Virus record (IMG/VR): IMGVR_UViG_3300020183_000346
Span: 1 to 29,358 of that record
Reading direction: 5' to 3' (one strand)
DNA: 29,358 bases
Source of the DNA: a virus
A program made the position numbers and the translations under genes. Of this stretch, positions 8,317 through 28,824 are shown one piece after another. The notes under the pieces were generated by a model. The model did no database searches and was not told the origin of the DNA. It worked only from the letters and a program-made list of their open reading frames with translations. How positions within the stretch are numbered: the stretch's first letter is position 1; every line of letters begins with the position of its first letter.

Positions 8317-9348
8317 ATGGCTCAGTTCATAGACACAAAGTACATCAATCTGTTGTCTCCAAGGCTTGAGCGATTTCAATGGAAGAAACCTAACCTAGCG
8401 GCATGCCGATGTCCAATTTGTGGTGACTCATCCAAGAGCAAACAGAAGGTTCGATTTTACTTCTACGAGAAGAGCGGCAACTTCTTTGTACGATGCCACA
8501 ACTGTGACTACAGCACAACACTTGGCAGTCTCATTCGCCACATGGATGGTAATCTGTATCGGCAATACTGCTTTGAGAATCTGAAGGACAAGAACGACAA
8601 TGGCATCTTTGTTCGGAAAGAACAATCGGAACCAAAGAAGCCTACACTTCCTGAAAACGCCGTTCTTGATGAGATACCAAAGTTATCAGAACTATCATCA
8701 TCTCACCCTGCTGTAGAGTGGGCGAGAAGCAGAAAGATTCCGAAGGCAAAGTTCGACTTGCTCCACTATGCGGACAACTTTGCTGAGTGGGTGTCTCTTA
8801 TAGATCCCGATGCGAATGTCGGTGATGATCAGAGAGTGGTTATACCCATCTTCTCCCGCACGGGTGCGCTCACGGGCGCACAGGGGCGCATGCTCGGGCA
8901 GGCGCAGGCGCACGGGCGTGAGGTGAGATACATTACCATCAAGGCAGACAAGGACGGTGGGAGGCTCTGGTATGGTCTTGAGCGAGTGGATCCTGATAGA
9001 CCTTTGGTTGTTGTTGAAGGCCCAATCGACAGTCTATTCTTGACTAATGGTGTTGCTATGTTGGGTTTAGCCGATCCACTAAACATTCCTGTTGGTGTTC
9101 CTACAGACAAGATTGTCTATGCTTTAGATAACGAACCTAGAAACAAACAAGTCGTTGAGGCAATGGAAACGCTCATTGAAGCAGGAAGATCTGTCTGTAT
9201 TTGGAGTCCCCGTGTAAATGGAATCAAGGACATAAACGACATGGTTCTCAAGGGAATTCATGCAGCAGAGATCGAGTCAATCATTCGTGAATGTACATTG
9301 TCTGGTCTTTCTGCCAAACTTGCAATAAAGACTTGGAAGCGAGTCTAA
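8317..9348 (+). CDS. 61: DNA primase, T4 gp61-like
   Basis: Makes RNA primers for lagging-strand synthesis with the replicative helicase. From the ATG at 8317 the protein has 343 residues, almost the length of T4 gp61 (342). The N-terminus holds a zinc-binding domain, C32-x2-C35 and C60-x2-C63 (CPICGDSSK, CHNCDYS), after the family segment INLLSPRLERF. The catalytic half has TOPRIM-like motifs VVVEGPIDS (E234) and YALDNE, then DINDMV. The reading frame opens upstream at a GTG (8278), but the ATG start fits the family length and begins just before the conserved block; only AGGA about 13 bases upstream is visible, so the start is not certain. Residues about 180-203 are coded by an unusually GC-rich, repetitive patch (8855-8924). 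The family call is strong. Confidence 0.85.
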   Translation: MAQFIDTKYINLLSPRLERFQWKKPNLAACRCPICGDSSKSKQKVRFYFYEKSGNFFVRCHNCDYSTTLGSLIRHMDGNLYRQYCFENLKDKNDNGIFVRKEQSEPKKPTLPENAVLDEIPKLSELSSSHPAVEWARSRKIPKAKFDLLHYADNFAEWVSLIDPDANVGDDQRVVIPIFSRTGALTGAQGRMLGQAQAHGREVRYITIKADKDGGRLWYGLERVDPDRPLVVVEGPIDSLFLTNGVAMLGLADPLNIPVGVPTDKIVYALDNEPRNKQVVEAMETLIEAGRSVCIWSPRVNGIKDINDMVLKGIHAAEIESIIRECTLSGLSAKLAIKTWKRV

Positions 9349-10396: not shown

Positions 10397-12043
<1,647 letters not shown>

Positions 12044-13048: not shown

Positions 13049-15469
13049 ATGCCAATCACAGGAACAATTCCATTAACAGGTGTGCTTGCTCCAACATCAG
13101 AGTTGGCAACATATCCAATCACTGATCCGAGATGGGGAAAAGGTGGACTTAGAACTGTAGGAACAACAGCAGACCGTGATGCCATTCCACAACTTCGGCG
13201 TGAAGAAGGGATGGTCGTTTATGTGAGTGGTCTGAGCGGTGGTCTCTACTACTCCCTTCGTGGAGGAACAGGTAATGAACATTGGGAGATATTTCAGTCT
13301 GGTACAGGAGACACAGTTCAAGCAGGACACGGCATTGCAATCAGTTCGTCTAGTAGCACCAAGACAATCTTCAACACAGGTGTCACGGGATTCAATGGTC
13401 TTACTGGTAATGTGACACTAACTGGTGATGGTCAAGCAATTCTAGGTAAAGACAACAATAGAATCTCAGTTCGTGAAGCAAGCACCTCCGTAACTGGTGT
13501 CGCTTCATTCAACTCAAGTTACTTTGATGTTGCCAATGGTGCTGTGAGTGCAAAAAATATCAATATCAACGATAGTGTTGGGGGATTAGGCACACTTGTA
13601 CTAGGAGACTCTCGTACATTTGGTGGTAAAGACATTTCAGTTGCTTGGCAGGGTGGCAGTAACTTAGTTTTTACAAATCTAGGTGTCACTAGTTTCAATG
13701 GTCTTACTGGAACTGTAACACTCACAGGTGATGGTCAAGCAATTCTAGGTAAACTCAACAATAGAATCTCAGTTCGTGAAGCAAGCACCTCCGTAACTGG
13801 TGTCGCTTCGTTCAACTCAAGTTACTTTGATGTTGCCAATGGTGCTGTGAGTCTCAAGTCAGGCTATCAAGTCACAGGAGATACCGTAGTTGCAGGAACG
13901 AATGTAAGCATCAGTAGAAATGGTAATACTGTAACTGTCTCCTCAAGTTCGGCCTCATCGACAACAATAGTCAATGGTGTCACAGGAATTGGATTCGGGG
14001 ATGATATTGGTCTCACAGGTAAGATCAATTTGACTGCTGGATCTGGTATCTCAATCACTGGTGCTGTGAATGGTGATGGGGTTCGTCAAGTTACTATTAC
14101 AAACACAGGCATTACAGGGATTAGGTATCCTACAAATTTAGGAGGAAATTCATATCGAACTGGTGCATTTACAATAACCGGATCTCAGTATATCTCTGTT
14201 TTTAGTACAGATGGTGGCGACACAATAGAAATCGGAAATGATGGAGTACAAACATTCAATGGTCTAGGTGGCGCAAGAACTTTAACTGGTGATGGTGGTG
14301 CTGTTCAGGGTAAAGTTAACACTAGAATCTCAGTTCGTCTAGCAACTGATTCTCTTACTGGTGTCGCTTCGTTCAACTCAAGTTACTTTGATGTTTCCGC
14401 AAATGGTGCTGTGAGTTTAAAGAGTGGCTATCAAGTCACAGGAGATACAGTAGTTGCAGGACACGGCATTGCAATCAGTTCATCCAACAATACCAAGACA
14501 ATCTTCAACACAGGTGTCACTAGTTTTAATGGTCTCACTGGAAATGTGACACTTACAGGTGATGGTCAAGCAATTCTAGGTAAACTCAACAATCAAATTA
14601 GCGCAAGAGTTCCTACTGTCTGTGGAATAACAGGTGTTGTTGGTTTACTTTGTGGGGGTGGATTGATCATCAATAATGATGGTCTAATTTCTTTTGATGG
14701 CGGCGGTCCACCACCGCCTGATGGTTGTGCTCCAGATTGTAGTGTTTATAATGGTAATGAAGCACTTTGTGTAGCAGCCGGATGTGCGTACTGTCGAAAT
14801 AGTGGCGTGTGTGTTTGTGACACATCAAGTTCAGTATGCTTGGGTGGCTGGCAGACTTTCAACGCAAAGTTCAGTCAACTAAACACAGGATTAGGTGTAT
14901 CAGGAACATCATCTGGAAACATATCTTACATCTATCTTGATGTTGGTAATCTTGCAACCATGGGTTCGACAATTGAATCCTCAGACTCTGTTCTATTCTT
15001 CGATGCTAACGAACCTGGTATAATCAAAACCAAGAAAGCATCGATCAGTAAACTTCTGCTCGATAATGATAATCTGTTTGAAAGTAAGACTCCAAACCAA
15101 CTCACAAGAAACGCAAAGGCAAGTACAATTGAGTTTTCGGTGGTACTTGGTGATGTTGCAGCGGGATCACAAGGGCTTCTCAAGGGCGCAAGCGCACACT
15201 ACTACATTGCACAAAACACCGTCAGATCCTTGAATGGAATGACAGGTGATCTTGAGTTCATGCTCAATGGGTGCACAGGTGATGGTAGTGGAAATATCAC
15301 AATCACGGGAACAGTAAATGAAGTTACAGTTACAAACAATTGCCCAACAATTGTGATTGGACTGCCCGACAATGTCATGGTTCCCTACATCAGTATATCA
15401 GGTGGAACTTTCACAGAAACCGTAAGTGCGAACCTATTTATAGGAAGTATCGTAGGGGGAACCTTCTAA
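13049..15469 (+). CDS. Repeat-built tail fibre protein
   Basis: 806 residues. The N-terminus (1-90) includes TADRDAIPQLRREEGMVVYV, typical of phage fibre base domains. The shaft then repeats a module of about 53 residues (FNGLTGNVTLTGDGQAILGK ... SVTGVASFNSSYFDV ... NGAVS) three times, plus a partial fourth copy, between residues about 115 and 517. A small cysteine-rich insert (residues about 555-600, CAPDC, CAYC, CVC) may be a disulfide-bonded or metal-binding knob. The C-terminus is beta-rich and ends FIGSIVGGTF, like the end of the collagen protein (VSGGVF). The start ATG is 2 bases after the upstream stop, with no visible Shine-Dalgarno, so translation is probably by reinitiation. The role is likely receptor recognition or fibre shaft. 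Confidence 0.8.
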   Translation: MPITGTIPLTGVLAPTSELATYPITDPRWGKGGLRTVGTTADRDAIPQLRREEGMVVYVSGLSGGLYYSLRGGTGNEHWEIFQSGTGDTVQAGHGIAISSSSSTKTIFNTGVTGFNGLTGNVTLTGDGQAILGKDNNRISVREASTSVTGVASFNSSYFDVANGAVSAKNININDSVGGLGTLVLGDSRTFGGKDISVAWQGGSNLVFTNLGVTSFNGLTGTVTLTGDGQAILGKLNNRISVREASTSVTGVASFNSSYFDVANGAVSLKSGYQVTGDTVVAGTNVSISRNGNTVTVSSSSASSTTIVNGVTGIGFGDDIGLTGKINLTAGSGISITGAVNGDGVRQVTITNTGITGIRYPTNLGGNSYRTGAFTITGSQYISVFSTDGGDTIEIGNDGVQTFNGLGGARTLTGDGGAVQGKVNTRISVRLATDSLTGVASFNSSYFDVSANGAVSLKSGYQVTGDTVVAGHGIAISSSNNTKTIFNTGVTSFNGLTGNVTLTGDGQAILGKLNNQISARVPTVCGITGVVGLLCGGGLIINNDGLISFDGGGPPPPDGCAPDCSVYNGNEALCVAAGCAYCRNSGVCVCDTSSSVCLGGWQTFNAKFSQLNTGLGVSGTSSGNISYIYLDVGNLATMGSTIESSDSVLFFDANEPGIIKTKKASISKLLLDNDNLFESKTPNQLTRNAKASTIEFSVVLGDVAAGSQGLLKGASAHYYIAQNTVRSLNGMTGDLEFMLNGCTGDGSGNITITGTVNEVTVTNNCPTIVIGLPDNVMVPYISISGGTFTETVSANLFIGSIVGGTF
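13391..14599 (+). repeat. Four copies of a ~160-bp intragenic repeat
   Basis: Copies lie at 13391-13549 and 13694-13852 (159 bases each), 14255-14416 (162 bases) and a truncated one at 14525-14599. Copies 1 and 2 are almost identical at DNA level across their last ~110 bases. Copy 3 is more diverged. All are in frame, so recombination would change module number without breaking the reading frame. Confidence 0.85.
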
Positions 15470-24514: not shown

Positions 24515-24628
24515 ATGTCAGAATTTCTAGGTACAACTTGGTGGAGCGTATTGATGTTTGTCGCTGGTGCTTTAATCGGCGCACCGCTGTGGAAGTGGGT
24601 CTCGGCCAAACTTCCGTGGAGCAAGTGA
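24515..24628 (+). CDS. 37-residue single-pass membrane microprotein
   Basis: 37 residues with a good ribosome binding site: AAGGAG (24503-24508) 6 bases before the ATG. The protein has a Trp-Trp start (TTWWSVLMFVAGALIGAPLW) forming one membrane helix (residues about 8-28) and a short basic tail (KWVSAKLPWSK). I recall very similar short proteins in marine T4-like phages, including the final PW(S/N)K, but cannot name a family. It lies 21 bases after the giant gene and 24 bases before a terminator hairpin, so it is probably cotranscribed with that gene. A small membrane or holin-like accessory role is possible. The Shine-Dalgarno and composition support a real gene. Confidence 0.7.
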   Translation: MSEFLGTTWWSVLMFVAGALIGAPLWKWVSAKLPWSK

Positions 24629-24652
24629 TACGAAGTAAAGATCAGTAACTAC

Positions 24653-24675
24653 GGGGGGAGAAATCCCCCTGTTTT
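24653..24675 (+). terminator. Rho-independent terminator with GNRA loop
   Basis: GGGGGA (24654-24659), loop GAAA (24660-24663), TCCCCC (24664-24669), then TGTTTTC. The stem is 6 G/C-rich pairs with a GAAA tetraloop and a short T tract. It ends the 21677-24628 unit. Confidence 0.75.
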
Positions 24676-24683
24676 CATTCCTC

Positions 24684-24763
24684 CGTGCGTGGGCGTACCC
24701 GTGCGTGGGCGCACCCGTGCGTGGGCGTACCCGTGCGTGGGCGTACCCGTGCGTGGGCGTGAG
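24684..24763 (+). repeat. 16-bp GC-rich tandem array (five units)
   Basis: CGTGCGTGGGCGTACC repeats head to tail five times: 24684-24699, 24700-24715 (T to C in GCGCACC), 24716-24731, 24732-24747, and 24748-24763 (last two bases changed). It starts 8 bases after the terminator T-run and ends 2 bases before the late box CTAAATA (24766). GGG/CCC arms can fold into small alternative hairpins. It is not coding on the + strand; a minus-strand ORF across it is a repeat artefact. Base composition is quite unlike the flanks. Confidence 0.85.
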
Positions 24764-24765
24764 TG

Positions 24766-24772
24766 CTAAATA
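24766..24772 (+). promoter_or_regulatory. Late promoter box CTAAATA directly after tandem array
   Basis: CTAAATA ends 6 bases before the ATG at 24779, so the predicted transcript would start at or beside the ATG. The sequence between them is only ACAA-rich and has no Shine-Dalgarno. Confidence 0.55.
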
Positions 24773-24778
24773 CAACAA

Positions 24779-24991
24779 ATGCCCAAAAACTACGATGATC
24801 TAATCCGATCTTTAGATGAATGGTCTGCACCTACAGCCCACACAGGAAGAGTATCATCTCGTCTTAGCACTCGCACAGACCTCTCTGCAAAGGCCAAGAA
24901 GCCAAGCGTAGTGCAACCTACTCAGTTACCGTTCAGCAAGAAAGAGAAGGCTCGTAGGGGCATCCACGGCTTTCAGATAGGGGAAAAGTAA
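24779..24991 (+). CDS. Short basic hypothetical protein, leaderless candidate
   Basis: 70 residues, basic and probably disordered: MPKNYDDLIRSLDEW is an amphipathic start, then a Ser/Thr/Arg stretch (SSRLSTRTDLSAKAKKPS) and a lysine-rich end (FSKKEKARRGIHGF). No known domain. No Shine-Dalgarno can be found before the ATG; upstream is the late box (6 bases) and the GC-rich array. The final TAATG overlaps the ATG of the giant 24991 gene by one base, so this gene probably serves as the translation lead-in of that protein. Could be an assembly factor of the large protein (inference). The reading frame is real, judged by the overlap and codon pattern. Confidence 0.6.
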   Translation: MPKNYDDLIRSLDEWSAPTAHTGRVSSRLSTRTDLSAKAKKPSVVQPTQLPFSKKEKARRGIHGFQIGEK

Positions 24992-27900
24992 TGGGATTTC
25001 ACGGGTCACAGGGATTCTTTCGGTTCAGGGGTGCAACATCCATTCCACAGAAAGAAGTGGGAATATCGGGTGACTCACGGTACACAAGAGCATTCATAGA
25101 TCGTGAACCAATAACTATACATCTACCGTTCACTCCAACTCAATCTGCTGGATTGAGGGGGGACATTCCCGAAGGTCACTCACTACCTTGGTCCTATGTT
25201 CAGCAGTATTGGAGCAGAACACCCGGTATACCAAATGAATTCTACGATAGAAAATTTGTGCCAGATCTGGCTTGGAATTCGTATGGTTCTTTACAAAGAC
25301 TAGGTGAACATGTTTTTCTATCGGAAAGTGATGGAAACATCATCCTGATTCGAAATCCTGTTCTTAGTGGTACAACAAGAGTTAACGCAGGAATTCCTGC
25401 TTTGTATGATGATGGTGTTGGTGTGTTTCTGTCTATTCCCTATCTTTGGGGATCTGAGATTGAGGGTATTCATAGTGGGGCAAGAAGATTCATAGTTGGA
25501 CCAACAAAAAATCCACTATCAAATCCATTCTATGGTGAGTACGATTCATCATCCCTAGACCCACTTGGAAGACTCGGTGATATAGCCTGCTCAGGAACAG
25601 GAGATTTCGAAGCGGGAGAACTTCTTTTTGTAATGCCAGAGTATGGAACAACCTCTGCTTACGATGAAACAAGACACGATCTGTTCAACTACGCAGCAGG
25701 AGTTCGTGTAACTTCGTCGCAAGTGAATGAGCCTTTTAACTCTAACTTCTTACCAAACACTCCGTTCTCCATTGAAAATATAAACTATTCTGGATTTAGA
25801 CTCAGAGACAGAAAGAAACTTCCTGTTCCGTATTCGGTGCCAGATGAAGAATCTTTACTGTCCATGGTGAATGGCACAACGGTAGAACCGGATCGAACAG
25901 TTTATGGAACTAGTGCCAATCCACGCACTCCAGGTTTCAGTACCTTTGTGAGTTGGAAGTATACAGGTGTCAATGCAAATCCTTCTAGAAGGCATGCATT
26001 TGCAATTACAAAACGCCACTTGCTGGCGATGTCAACCCCATTTCACAACTATGCATACTCATCCGAAGCACCCTACACAAAAGATGTTTCAGGATTTGCT
26101 ACTGCTGTTACAGGATACACTCCTTTCACAGATCATCAGCCAGGAGACAAGGTCTATTTTTATGACCGAGTACAAAACACAGTGATCGAAAGAACAGTGG
26201 TTGCATCGATGCCATTTGATGTGGCATCTGTCCACAACACCATCAACAAGATAGTAAATGGGGCATATCCTAGACTTGAAACAACCTATGATGTAACTTA
26301 TCTTCCGCAAGGGTGTGGTATAGTTCTATCGTATCCAGATGGTACAACATATGATGCACCTTGTTACAACTATACTGTTGTGCAAGAGGGATACAATCGA
26401 ACAATTTACACTTCAAACGAAGAGCATGTGTCCCTGAATGAATATCTTCCTGTGGGAGGAACATCGGACATATTTGAGTTTGCTGAATTTGGTGATAAGT
26501 GGTTAGATCCGTATCCTGTGAGATCTGGTGAAGAGTCGGGAATAGAATTTGCTGACTCTGTTACTAGATTCAAAGACAAGTTTTTACAGAATTCAGTGTA
26601 CAAAGACAACTTCGATGGGATGAGCAACAATCAGTTTGGTGCAACATCTTTCTTTGAACTGATTCCCTACAACTCAACATTAGGTTTGAATTTTGGTGGA
26701 GTGACATCATCAACTGGCGAAGGTTGGTTCAATAGTTTGATGCCTTTCAACTACCCAATCAGAAATCTCTCATCATATACTCCGCTAGACCTTTATACGA
26801 TCAACAATCAATCGGGCACAAACTCTTTGTTGCTACAAAAGACTTTGACGAGTCCATTCCTGAAATCAATAGCGTTTGAAAACTCAATTGGTGAGCAACT
26901 ACCAACATCAGAGAATTTAAGATCAAGTCAAGCAAACCAGAGTGCTGGTGTGGTGGTTTATCCATCGTCTAGAGATGTAATTGCAGTTACAACAGAAACG
27001 CCTCCAAGTGTATCTGGACCGTCAATTCCTCCGAAAGAAGTGGATCCATCTTTACCCGAGTCATCAATCAGTGATCAGTTCTACTACTTGCCATCTGCGG
27101 CTAGAAACGCAATAGCAGAATACTTTCCGCACGGTTTAAACAATGTGTTTTATGGAAGTTTAGATGATGACGATGAGTTTAGAAGACTCATCACATGGCA
27201 CTACCTAACAAGTCACTACAAGGGATTGATTGATGGTAAGTGCAGCATTCATTTGTTGGATGAGGACTTACCTGATGGCGTTAAGCCCATCTCTTTCTTG
27301 GATGTAAGGCGTTCTGAGTTACATAAACACGAATTGTTCTTCGATGATCAAATGCGTGGATTTGCATCAAAGAGTTGTCCGCCTCAATCAGCATTTGTCC
27401 CTTATCAATACTATGGTAGAGGTGGACCAGGATGCGGATCTAGTTACGCACTCAATTCTTTTGCAAGAACATTTGCCAATCCTTATGGCGAATCGATGTT
27501 ATCATTTAGGTTGTTTAGACTAGGTCGGTGCGGAGATGATGTGTCGAATGCACTAGATCCTTGTGGTGAAATTGGAGAAACTGCCTCTGGTCCTGATTGT
27601 CGATGGGGTGTATGGGAAATCGGTGTTGGGTCAGATATCCCGATCTATCCGAACCGTGGACTTGATTCTGGATTATTGTTCTCTGATGTTTCTCAACAAA
27701 ATAATTGTTATGATTGCTGGTACAATTCGAACGACGCTAGAGAAAGAGAACTGCCTCCAAATGTACTGAATACTGACAAATTGAATGATGTAACATCTGA
27801 CAAGATTAGTTGGGGTGGAAGTGATCTTCCTGGTCCATTATTTACATACGGAAAAAGTGGAAGCCCAATTCTATCCAAGGTGGTTACCCAATCAGTATAC

Positions 27901-28824
27901 GGTGCAATGACTGATAACTACAGATACTTATTTGATTATGTTGTAACAGGACACAAAGGGGCTGATTTAAATCCTGGTGATGCCGTCTTCCAAAATTTCT
28001 CAGGTGCAACAGGAATTTGTTCGTATCCATTTGATAGTACTATTGGTAGAGTTTTTGCATACTCAAAGGACACAGGAAGACTAATTCTTTCCCTACGAGG
28101 ATCTCATCCAATTCTGTCAAGTGATTTGTTGCTTCGATGTGATGAAACTATAAGACCTATTGGTGCTACATTTGGAACAACTGCTGGATACATCGAAAGA
28201 TCATCATATGCAAATCCGTGTAGTACATCACCAACTGATACACAATTAGGGTTTCAATTTAAGCACGAATTGGGCAAGACTGGATATGCGTATGCACTCA
28301 AAGGAACAGGACTACCATATCCAAATGATCGTGAAGTCTCTACTTGGTTTGAAGTTCAGAGTGGCGGACCAAGAGTTTTTGGATTATATTGGCCCTTTGG
28401 TTTGTGGTATGAAGGGTGGTTAGAAGAACCCATTCTAAACAGTAAAGATGACACTTGTTCTTTTGTGGAATCTACAGATCCCATTCCCTCAAGTAATGCA
28501 CTTTATCTTGGTACTCACAATATGGGTATGTTCTTATCAGATCAACCGGTGTATTACCGAAGTACAAATGTGAATGATCCAAATCGTTTCTACTACTTCG
28601 GAAAGGTCGAAGATTTGTTCTACAAGATGCTTGAAGATTTCAATACCGCTAATGGTGTTACTGCACAATACAGATGCACTAAAGAGATCCTCAAGTATGA
28701 TAGTGAATCTAATGCATACAACTATCCAAATTCAGTAGTGGTACCTGGCTTGAGAACGCCCATGCCATCACTCACAAGAATCTATGCGGGAGTAAATATA
28801 AGAGAATCAGAGTTCCTGAAGTGA
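24991..28824 (+). CDS. Giant hypothetical protein, likely virion or adhesion component
   Basis: 1277 residues, no domain I can name. It is rich in Ser, Gly, Tyr, Asn and Pro with many short beta-like segments, and has scattered cysteines, clustered around residues 800-915 (e.g. SCPPQS, CGDD, CGEI, CYDCWY). Starting MGFHGSQGFFRFRGATSI there is no signal peptide; no coiled coil or transmembrane helix is obvious. The region GATGICSYPFDSTIGRVFAYSKDTGRLIL resembles a bead of beta structure. The start overlaps the preceding stop (TAATG), with GGGGAAAAG as a possible ribosome site. Its size, position after the cysteine-rich giant and late-promoter setting suggest a large virion protein such as a tail or fibre component. 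Function unknown. Confidence 0.65.
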   Translation: MGFHGSQGFFRFRGATSIPQKEVGISGDSRYTRAFIDREPITIHLPFTPTQSAGLRGDIPEGHSLPWSYVQQYWSRTPGIPNEFYDRKFVPDLAWNSYGSLQRLGEHVFLSESDGNIILIRNPVLSGTTRVNAGIPALYDDGVGVFLSIPYLWGSEIEGIHSGARRFIVGPTKNPLSNPFYGEYDSSSLDPLGRLGDIACSGTGDFEAGELLFVMPEYGTTSAYDETRHDLFNYAAGVRVTSSQVNEPFNSNFLPNTPFSIENINYSGFRLRDRKKLPVPYSVPDEESLLSMVNGTTVEPDRTVYGTSANPRTPGFSTFVSWKYTGVNANPSRRHAFAITKRHLLAMSTPFHNYAYSSEAPYTKDVSGFATAVTGYTPFTDHQPGDKVYFYDRVQNTVIERTVVASMPFDVASVHNTINKIVNGAYPRLETTYDVTYLPQGCGIVLSYPDGTTYDAPCYNYTVVQEGYNRTIYTSNEEHVSLNEYLPVGGTSDIFEFAEFGDKWLDPYPVRSGEESGIEFADSVTRFKDKFLQNSVYKDNFDGMSNNQFGATSFFELIPYNSTLGLNFGGVTSSTGEGWFNSLMPFNYPIRNLSSYTPLDLYTINNQSGTNSLLLQKTLTSPFLKSIAFENSIGEQLPTSENLRSSQANQSAGVVVYPSSRDVIAVTTETPPSVSGPSIPPKEVDPSLPESSISDQFYYLPSAARNAIAEYFPHGLNNVFYGSLDDDDEFRRLITWHYLTSHYKGLIDGKCSIHLLDEDLPDGVKPISFLDVRRSELHKHELFFDDQMRGFASKSCPPQSAFVPYQYYGRGGPGCGSSYALNSFARTFANPYGESMLSFRLFRLGRCGDDVSNALDPCGEIGETASGPDCRWGVWEIGVGSDIPIYPNRGLDSGLLFSDVSQQNNCYDCWYNSNDARERELPPNVLNTDKLNDVTSDKISWGGSDLPGPLFTYGKSGSPILSKVVTQSVYGAMTDNYRYLFDYVVTGHKGADLNPGDAVFQNFSGATGICSYPFDSTIGRVFAYSKDTGRLILSLRGSHPILSSDLLLRCDETIRPIGATFGTTAGYIERSSYANPCSTSPTDTQLGFQFKHELGKTGYAYALKGTGLPYPNDREVSTWFEVQSGGPRVFGLYWPFGLWYEGWLEEPILNSKDDTCSFVESTDPIPSSNALYLGTHNMGMFLSDQPVYYRSTNVNDPNRFYYFGKVEDLFYKMLEDFNTANGVTAQYRCTKEILKYDSESNAYNYPNSVVVPGLRTPMPSLTRIYAGVNIRESEFLK

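Follow-up and report, generated by a model that had tools for sequence, protein, structure and literature searches.

A 16-bp GC-rich tandem array between a terminator and a late box of a T4-like phage: probably a variable-number minisatellite of a small dispersed repeat family

The stretch of DNA analyzed here, 29,358 nt and referred to below as the window, belongs to the genome of a T4-like phage with 44.5% GC and holds part of it; primase, thymidylate synthase and ribonucleotide reductase genes were assigned by PHROGs. On its + strand, a conserved gene for a 37-aa protein (MSEFLGTTWWSVLMF..., 24515–24628), 86% identical in L007 and G002, is followed by an intrinsic terminator (24651–24676), a stem-loop ACGGGGGGAGAAATCCCCCTGT with a T tail. 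The stem-loop proper (24651–24672) was the best terminator-like site of the region in a terminator scan, and it is kept in syntenic relatives. Farther downstream on the same strand, a CTAAATA box (24766–24772) precedes a 70-aa gene (24779–24991, 85% identical in L007) and a 1277-aa gene (24991–28824, 67% identical in L007), the latter matching nothing in Pfam or PHROGs. CTAAATA occurs seven times on the + strand of the window and never on the – strand, mostly 9–32 bases 5' of an ORF; a late promoter is therefore a fair reading of the motif, which relatives also keep at this site. In the window and in relatives, this box is placed just 12 bases upstream of the start codon (ATG) of the 70-aa gene (24766–24781), so that the late mRNA would be nearly leaderless and devoid of the usual ribosome-binding site.

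Between the terminator and the late box lies a GC-rich tandem array, on the + strand at 24684–24763, made of four 16-bp units and a fifth that matches at 13 of 16 bases. The first unit, at 24684, is CGTGCGTGGGCGTACC; the second, at 24700, is CGTGCGTGGGCGCACC and carries one change, a C/T variant; those at 24716 and 24732 are perfect; the fifth, at 24748, is CGTGCGTGGGCGTGAG, and the last base that matches the unit unbroken is 24760. A tandem-repeat measure gives a 16-bp period with 96% matches and the units head-to-tail, and five unit sites with at most three mismatches were found against 0.02 expected in shuffled sequence. The five near-perfect units reported in the first-pass annotation are thus real and far above chance, the fifth being the weakest. 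The nominal fifth unit ends 2 bases before the late box, and seven bases (ATTCCTC) separate the TTTTC of the terminator from the array. The same annotation held that the repeat is not selected as protein, and a translated unit was indeed dropped from consideration, as 16 is not a multiple of three and relatives do without the stretch. The array matched no Rfam family and no tRNA, and no sigma-70-like site was found at 24600–24790, so no early promoter accompanies it. Every unit contains GCGTGGGCG, the textbook Zif268/EGR1 binding site, presumably a coincidence in a phage.

The 37-aa gene was used as an anchor to retrieve 42 loci from viral contigs, and the syntenic ones were compared with the window: L025 (G004), L037 (G005), L038 (G002) and L026–L028. 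Each has the terminator stem-loop, a spacer of 5–20 bases, the late box and the start codon, and no array; by BLAST, where the window has positions 24680–24763, G004 has 15 bases and G005 about 14. At this site, relatives differ only in the presence or absence of the array, and a comparison of genomes with and without it, as the first-pass annotation had suggested, found that those without it keep the genes, the terminator and the late box. The box is therefore independent of the array. Judged by these alignments, the array would be either a gain in the lineage of the window or a loss in all others, a gain being simpler.

A search for further copies of the unit, also proposed at the outset, came up empty in the rest of the window and succeeded in a sister phage. 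The exact two-unit pattern is present in one viral contig, L006, where 5.6 copies lie 3' of the terminator of a gene for a gp32-type single-strand-binding protein. G004, the nearest relative of the window, encodes a counterpart with 96% identity to this protein, which places L006 in the same phage group; L006 and the window do not overlap and are not known to be parts of one genome. A looser pattern added L120, the same gp32 locus in a phage near-identical to L006. In both, the gp32 terminator lies on one side of the array and the stop codon of a convergently transcribed gene on the other, with no late promoter at the site. The two array sites are about 15 kb apart on G004. The gp32 site is empty, with the terminator and no array, in six relatives (G004, G002, L190, L191, L192 and L194), and 530 kb of 80 other gp32-bearing loci hold no cluster of repeat words. 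The phage contigs behind these conclusions are metagenomic assemblies.

The array of the window and that of L006 agree over 50 bases without a mismatch and have the same two unit variants. Aligned DNA of G004 is about 84% identical to the window and 91% identical to L006. At 84–91% identity, several differences would be expected per 50 bases, from which we infer recent copying between the loci or strong homogenization. The near-identical pair at the gp32 locus points to resizing: the L120 array is shorter by 32 bp, or two units, than that of L006, and an alignment count gives four substitutions in the shared array versus one in about 230 flanking bases. The L006 units are uniform in the interior and degenerate at the edges. 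Such behavior is typical of tandem repeats subject to slippage and unequal exchange. No junction revealing the route of block transfer was found, and by-eye comparison of the flanks with the empty sites found no target-site duplication.

Related words had also been claimed for two other places in the window. The claim stands for a GC-rich patch in the primase gene (8855–8926 on the + strand), which is related to the array on the opposite strand: it has a 13-bp exact match and scores 34 versus 14.5 ± 3.1 for shuffled units rebuilt as tandem arrays (z 6.3, 0/300). It fails for the fibre repeat, which bears no significant resemblance to the unit and was set aside (z 1.3, 44/300 shuffles). The primase patch has the same nucleotide sequence in G004 for at least 69 bases, between differing flanks, and is missing from other relatives, which keep the GAQGR residues; a 16-mer of G031 matches it, in a stretch that has no array around it. 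The window has other repetitive sequence too: a collagen-like tail fibre gene (10744–11900) rich in tandem repeats of 9, 18 and 27 bp, and, within an 806-aa gene, a segment (13304–14593) with matches at many positions of the first 6 kb of G002, a structural module multiply repeated there.

GC-rich patches recur beyond the window. They are found in primase genes (the window, G004, G045, G046 and G026), in the C-terminal tail of helicase genes (G046, G045 and G026), in the gene for a 256–257-aa protein (G046 and G026) that we take to be a deacetylase from its sequence, and at L017 6414–6472, where GC-rich words with a 14-bp period lie just before a GGATAAATAC late box on a contig whose ORFs we read as nucleotidyltransferase- and glycosyltransferase-like. 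Against dinucleotide shuffles, many unlinked patches align better than expected (z 8.1 for L017 with the G045 primase, z 5.4 for the window primase with the window array). Under a stricter control, with 300 tandem arrays rebuilt from shuffled units, the distant patches score z 0.4–3.0 against the array, with L017 (8/300) and the G045 and G046 primases (3/300 each) borderline and the others null. The word CGCACGGG occurs in codon phases 0, 1 and 2 across genes, and in two phases 14 bp apart inside one primase gene; the likeness of the patches therefore lies in DNA, not protein. Compared with relatives, the coding patches show little net change in length and may reflect replacement or codon choice rather than insertion. 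CTCRC/GYGAG inverted words, picked after inspection, stand at 12 of 26 patch ends versus 1.15 in shuffles, and at 2 of 36 ends of other GC-rich patches in the same phages. The patches of G026, a genome of 51% GC, count for less because a reversed-sequence control also yields clusters there (two versus five).

No host or bacterial source of the unit was found: the exact tandem pattern gave no match in bacterial and archaeal genomes, and a looser one gave five, all in actinobacteria by title. Searching phages and plasmids by BLAST with the full 80-bp array was uninformative; its DUST score, 26 by our own calculation, exceeds the usual masking threshold of 20. A 48-bp query gave weak matches, to mycobacteriophages (best E 0.9) and to mostly actinobacterial plasmid records (best an Embleya replicon, E 4e-4), which were taken as chance likeness in GC-rich DNA.

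The best explanation, to which a probability of about 0.6 can be assigned, is that the array is a near-neutral variable-number minisatellite, copied between loci and belonging to a small family of GC-rich repeats that is dispersed among T4-like phages of one group. Sequence comparison documents the empty sites, the unit and its variants at a second locus, the differences in copy number and sequence, and a likeness across loci beyond composition. Of the options raised by the first-pass annotation, a mobile mini-repeat is the one these data bear out, with an empty site in relatives, the tandem unit at a different place in a sister phage and a copy number that varies there. A repeat that spreads and resizes, rather than a promoter switch, is favored because the array is missing in the nearest relatives and present behind the terminator of another gene in the sister phage. 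Copying would have brought in a block of units from a different locus to replace some 15 bases between the late box and the terminator that follows the 37-aa gene; blocks of this kind would lengthen and shorten by slippage or unequal recombination. The copying itself could proceed by template switching or gene conversion during recombination-dependent replication; both its direction and the near-neutrality of the array are what we infer from the distribution of copies. The array would be tolerated in this gap, since it is flanked on one side by a terminator and on the other by a promoter relying mainly, as in T4, on its –10 box. Some observations pull against the minisatellite reading: no genome carrying both arrays was seen among the contigs, the window array and the L017 patch both precede late boxes, and both 16-bp arrays lie directly behind terminators, which could mean a role there instead of tolerance.

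Control of the promoter, support of the terminator and service as a replication or packaging site are possible functions, each with evidence against it. The least improbable of these, though unlikely, is that the array forms a GC-rich buffer behind the stem-loop, strengthening termination or blocking read-through or converging transcription. Both 16-bp arrays do lie 3' of an intrinsic terminator, in L006 and L120 between convergent genes, and terminator plus array folds as RNA with z –2.4 versus shuffles, a value that includes the terminator itself. On its own, however, the array folds no more strongly than composition predicts (z +1.0), with no excess of structure over shuffles as RNA or as DNA, relatives manage with the terminator alone, and the related patches lie within genes. 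It is somewhat less probable still that the array serves as the binding site of a phage or host protein and so regulates the putative late promoter of the 70-aa and 1277-aa genes, as the first-pass annotation had considered; the array stops 2 bases before the late box, and the GC-word patch of L017 is likewise 5' of its box. Relatives nonetheless keep the box without the array, the L006/L120 array faces a convergent gene and no late promoter, and units of 16 and 14 bp are out of helical phase.

It is comparably improbable that simple GC-rich sequence expanded by chance at each locus independently, with no copying from one to another. Slippage alone is able to make arrays, and under the strict control the distant patches are only weakly like the array; 50 identical bases and two common unit variants at non-orthologous loci would nonetheless be unexpected without copying. 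A site of replication, recombination or packaging, another early suggestion, deserves the least credence: the iteron-like form of the array and the several related patches in or beside replication genes (primase, helicase, gp32) speak for it, while no positive evidence emerged for a packaging or recombination site, a role unlikely for a feature missing in most close relatives and differently positioned between phages. T4-type headful packaging, moreover, needs no such site.

The closest known kinds are bacterial VNTRs (minisatellites) and the mobile GC clusters of yeast mitochondrial DNA, and, less closely, the mobile regulatory cassettes of T4-type phages. Like VNTRs, the array has short tandem non-coding units, a copy number that varies between near-identical genomes and degenerate edge units; unlike them, it resides in a lytic T4-like phage, has a second, non-orthologous locus in a sister phage and has related patches in coding genes. 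The T4-type cassettes, reportedly described by Arbiol et al. in 2010, are said to consist of an early promoter and a stem-loop; they too are small intergenic pieces that move between loci near stem-loops or promoters, whereas the array is a tandem repeat with no early promoter. The yeast GC clusters are short, GC-rich and palindromic, sporadic, spreading between loci and fast-changing in sequence (PMC4478555). The array is likewise short, GC-rich in an AT-richer genome, sporadic, present at several loci and fast-changing, but its unit is tandem and no palindrome, and no target-site duplication was seen. Small non-autonomous, MITE-like bacterial repeats occupy both intergenic and intragenic places (PMC2229807); the array and patches share this small size and range of places and differ in that their ends seem to carry short inverted words instead of complete terminal inverted repeats, no target-site duplication was seen, and the coding patches show no clear insertion.

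A more tentative proposal, somewhat doubtful at present, is that T4-like phages harbor in these sequences a new family of GC-rich, non-autonomous mini-elements sharing inverted ends, whose tandem arrays land behind terminators and which, at the DNA level, also take over stretches of replication genes that tolerate them. As far as searched, a minisatellite common to different loci has no counterpart in cultured phages. With two loci, their empty sites and a near-identical pair differing in copy number, the jumping and resizing of a repeat in T4-type recombination-dependent replication become testable. The coding patches, if truly related, would mean that a DNA-level process shapes stretches of replication proteins.
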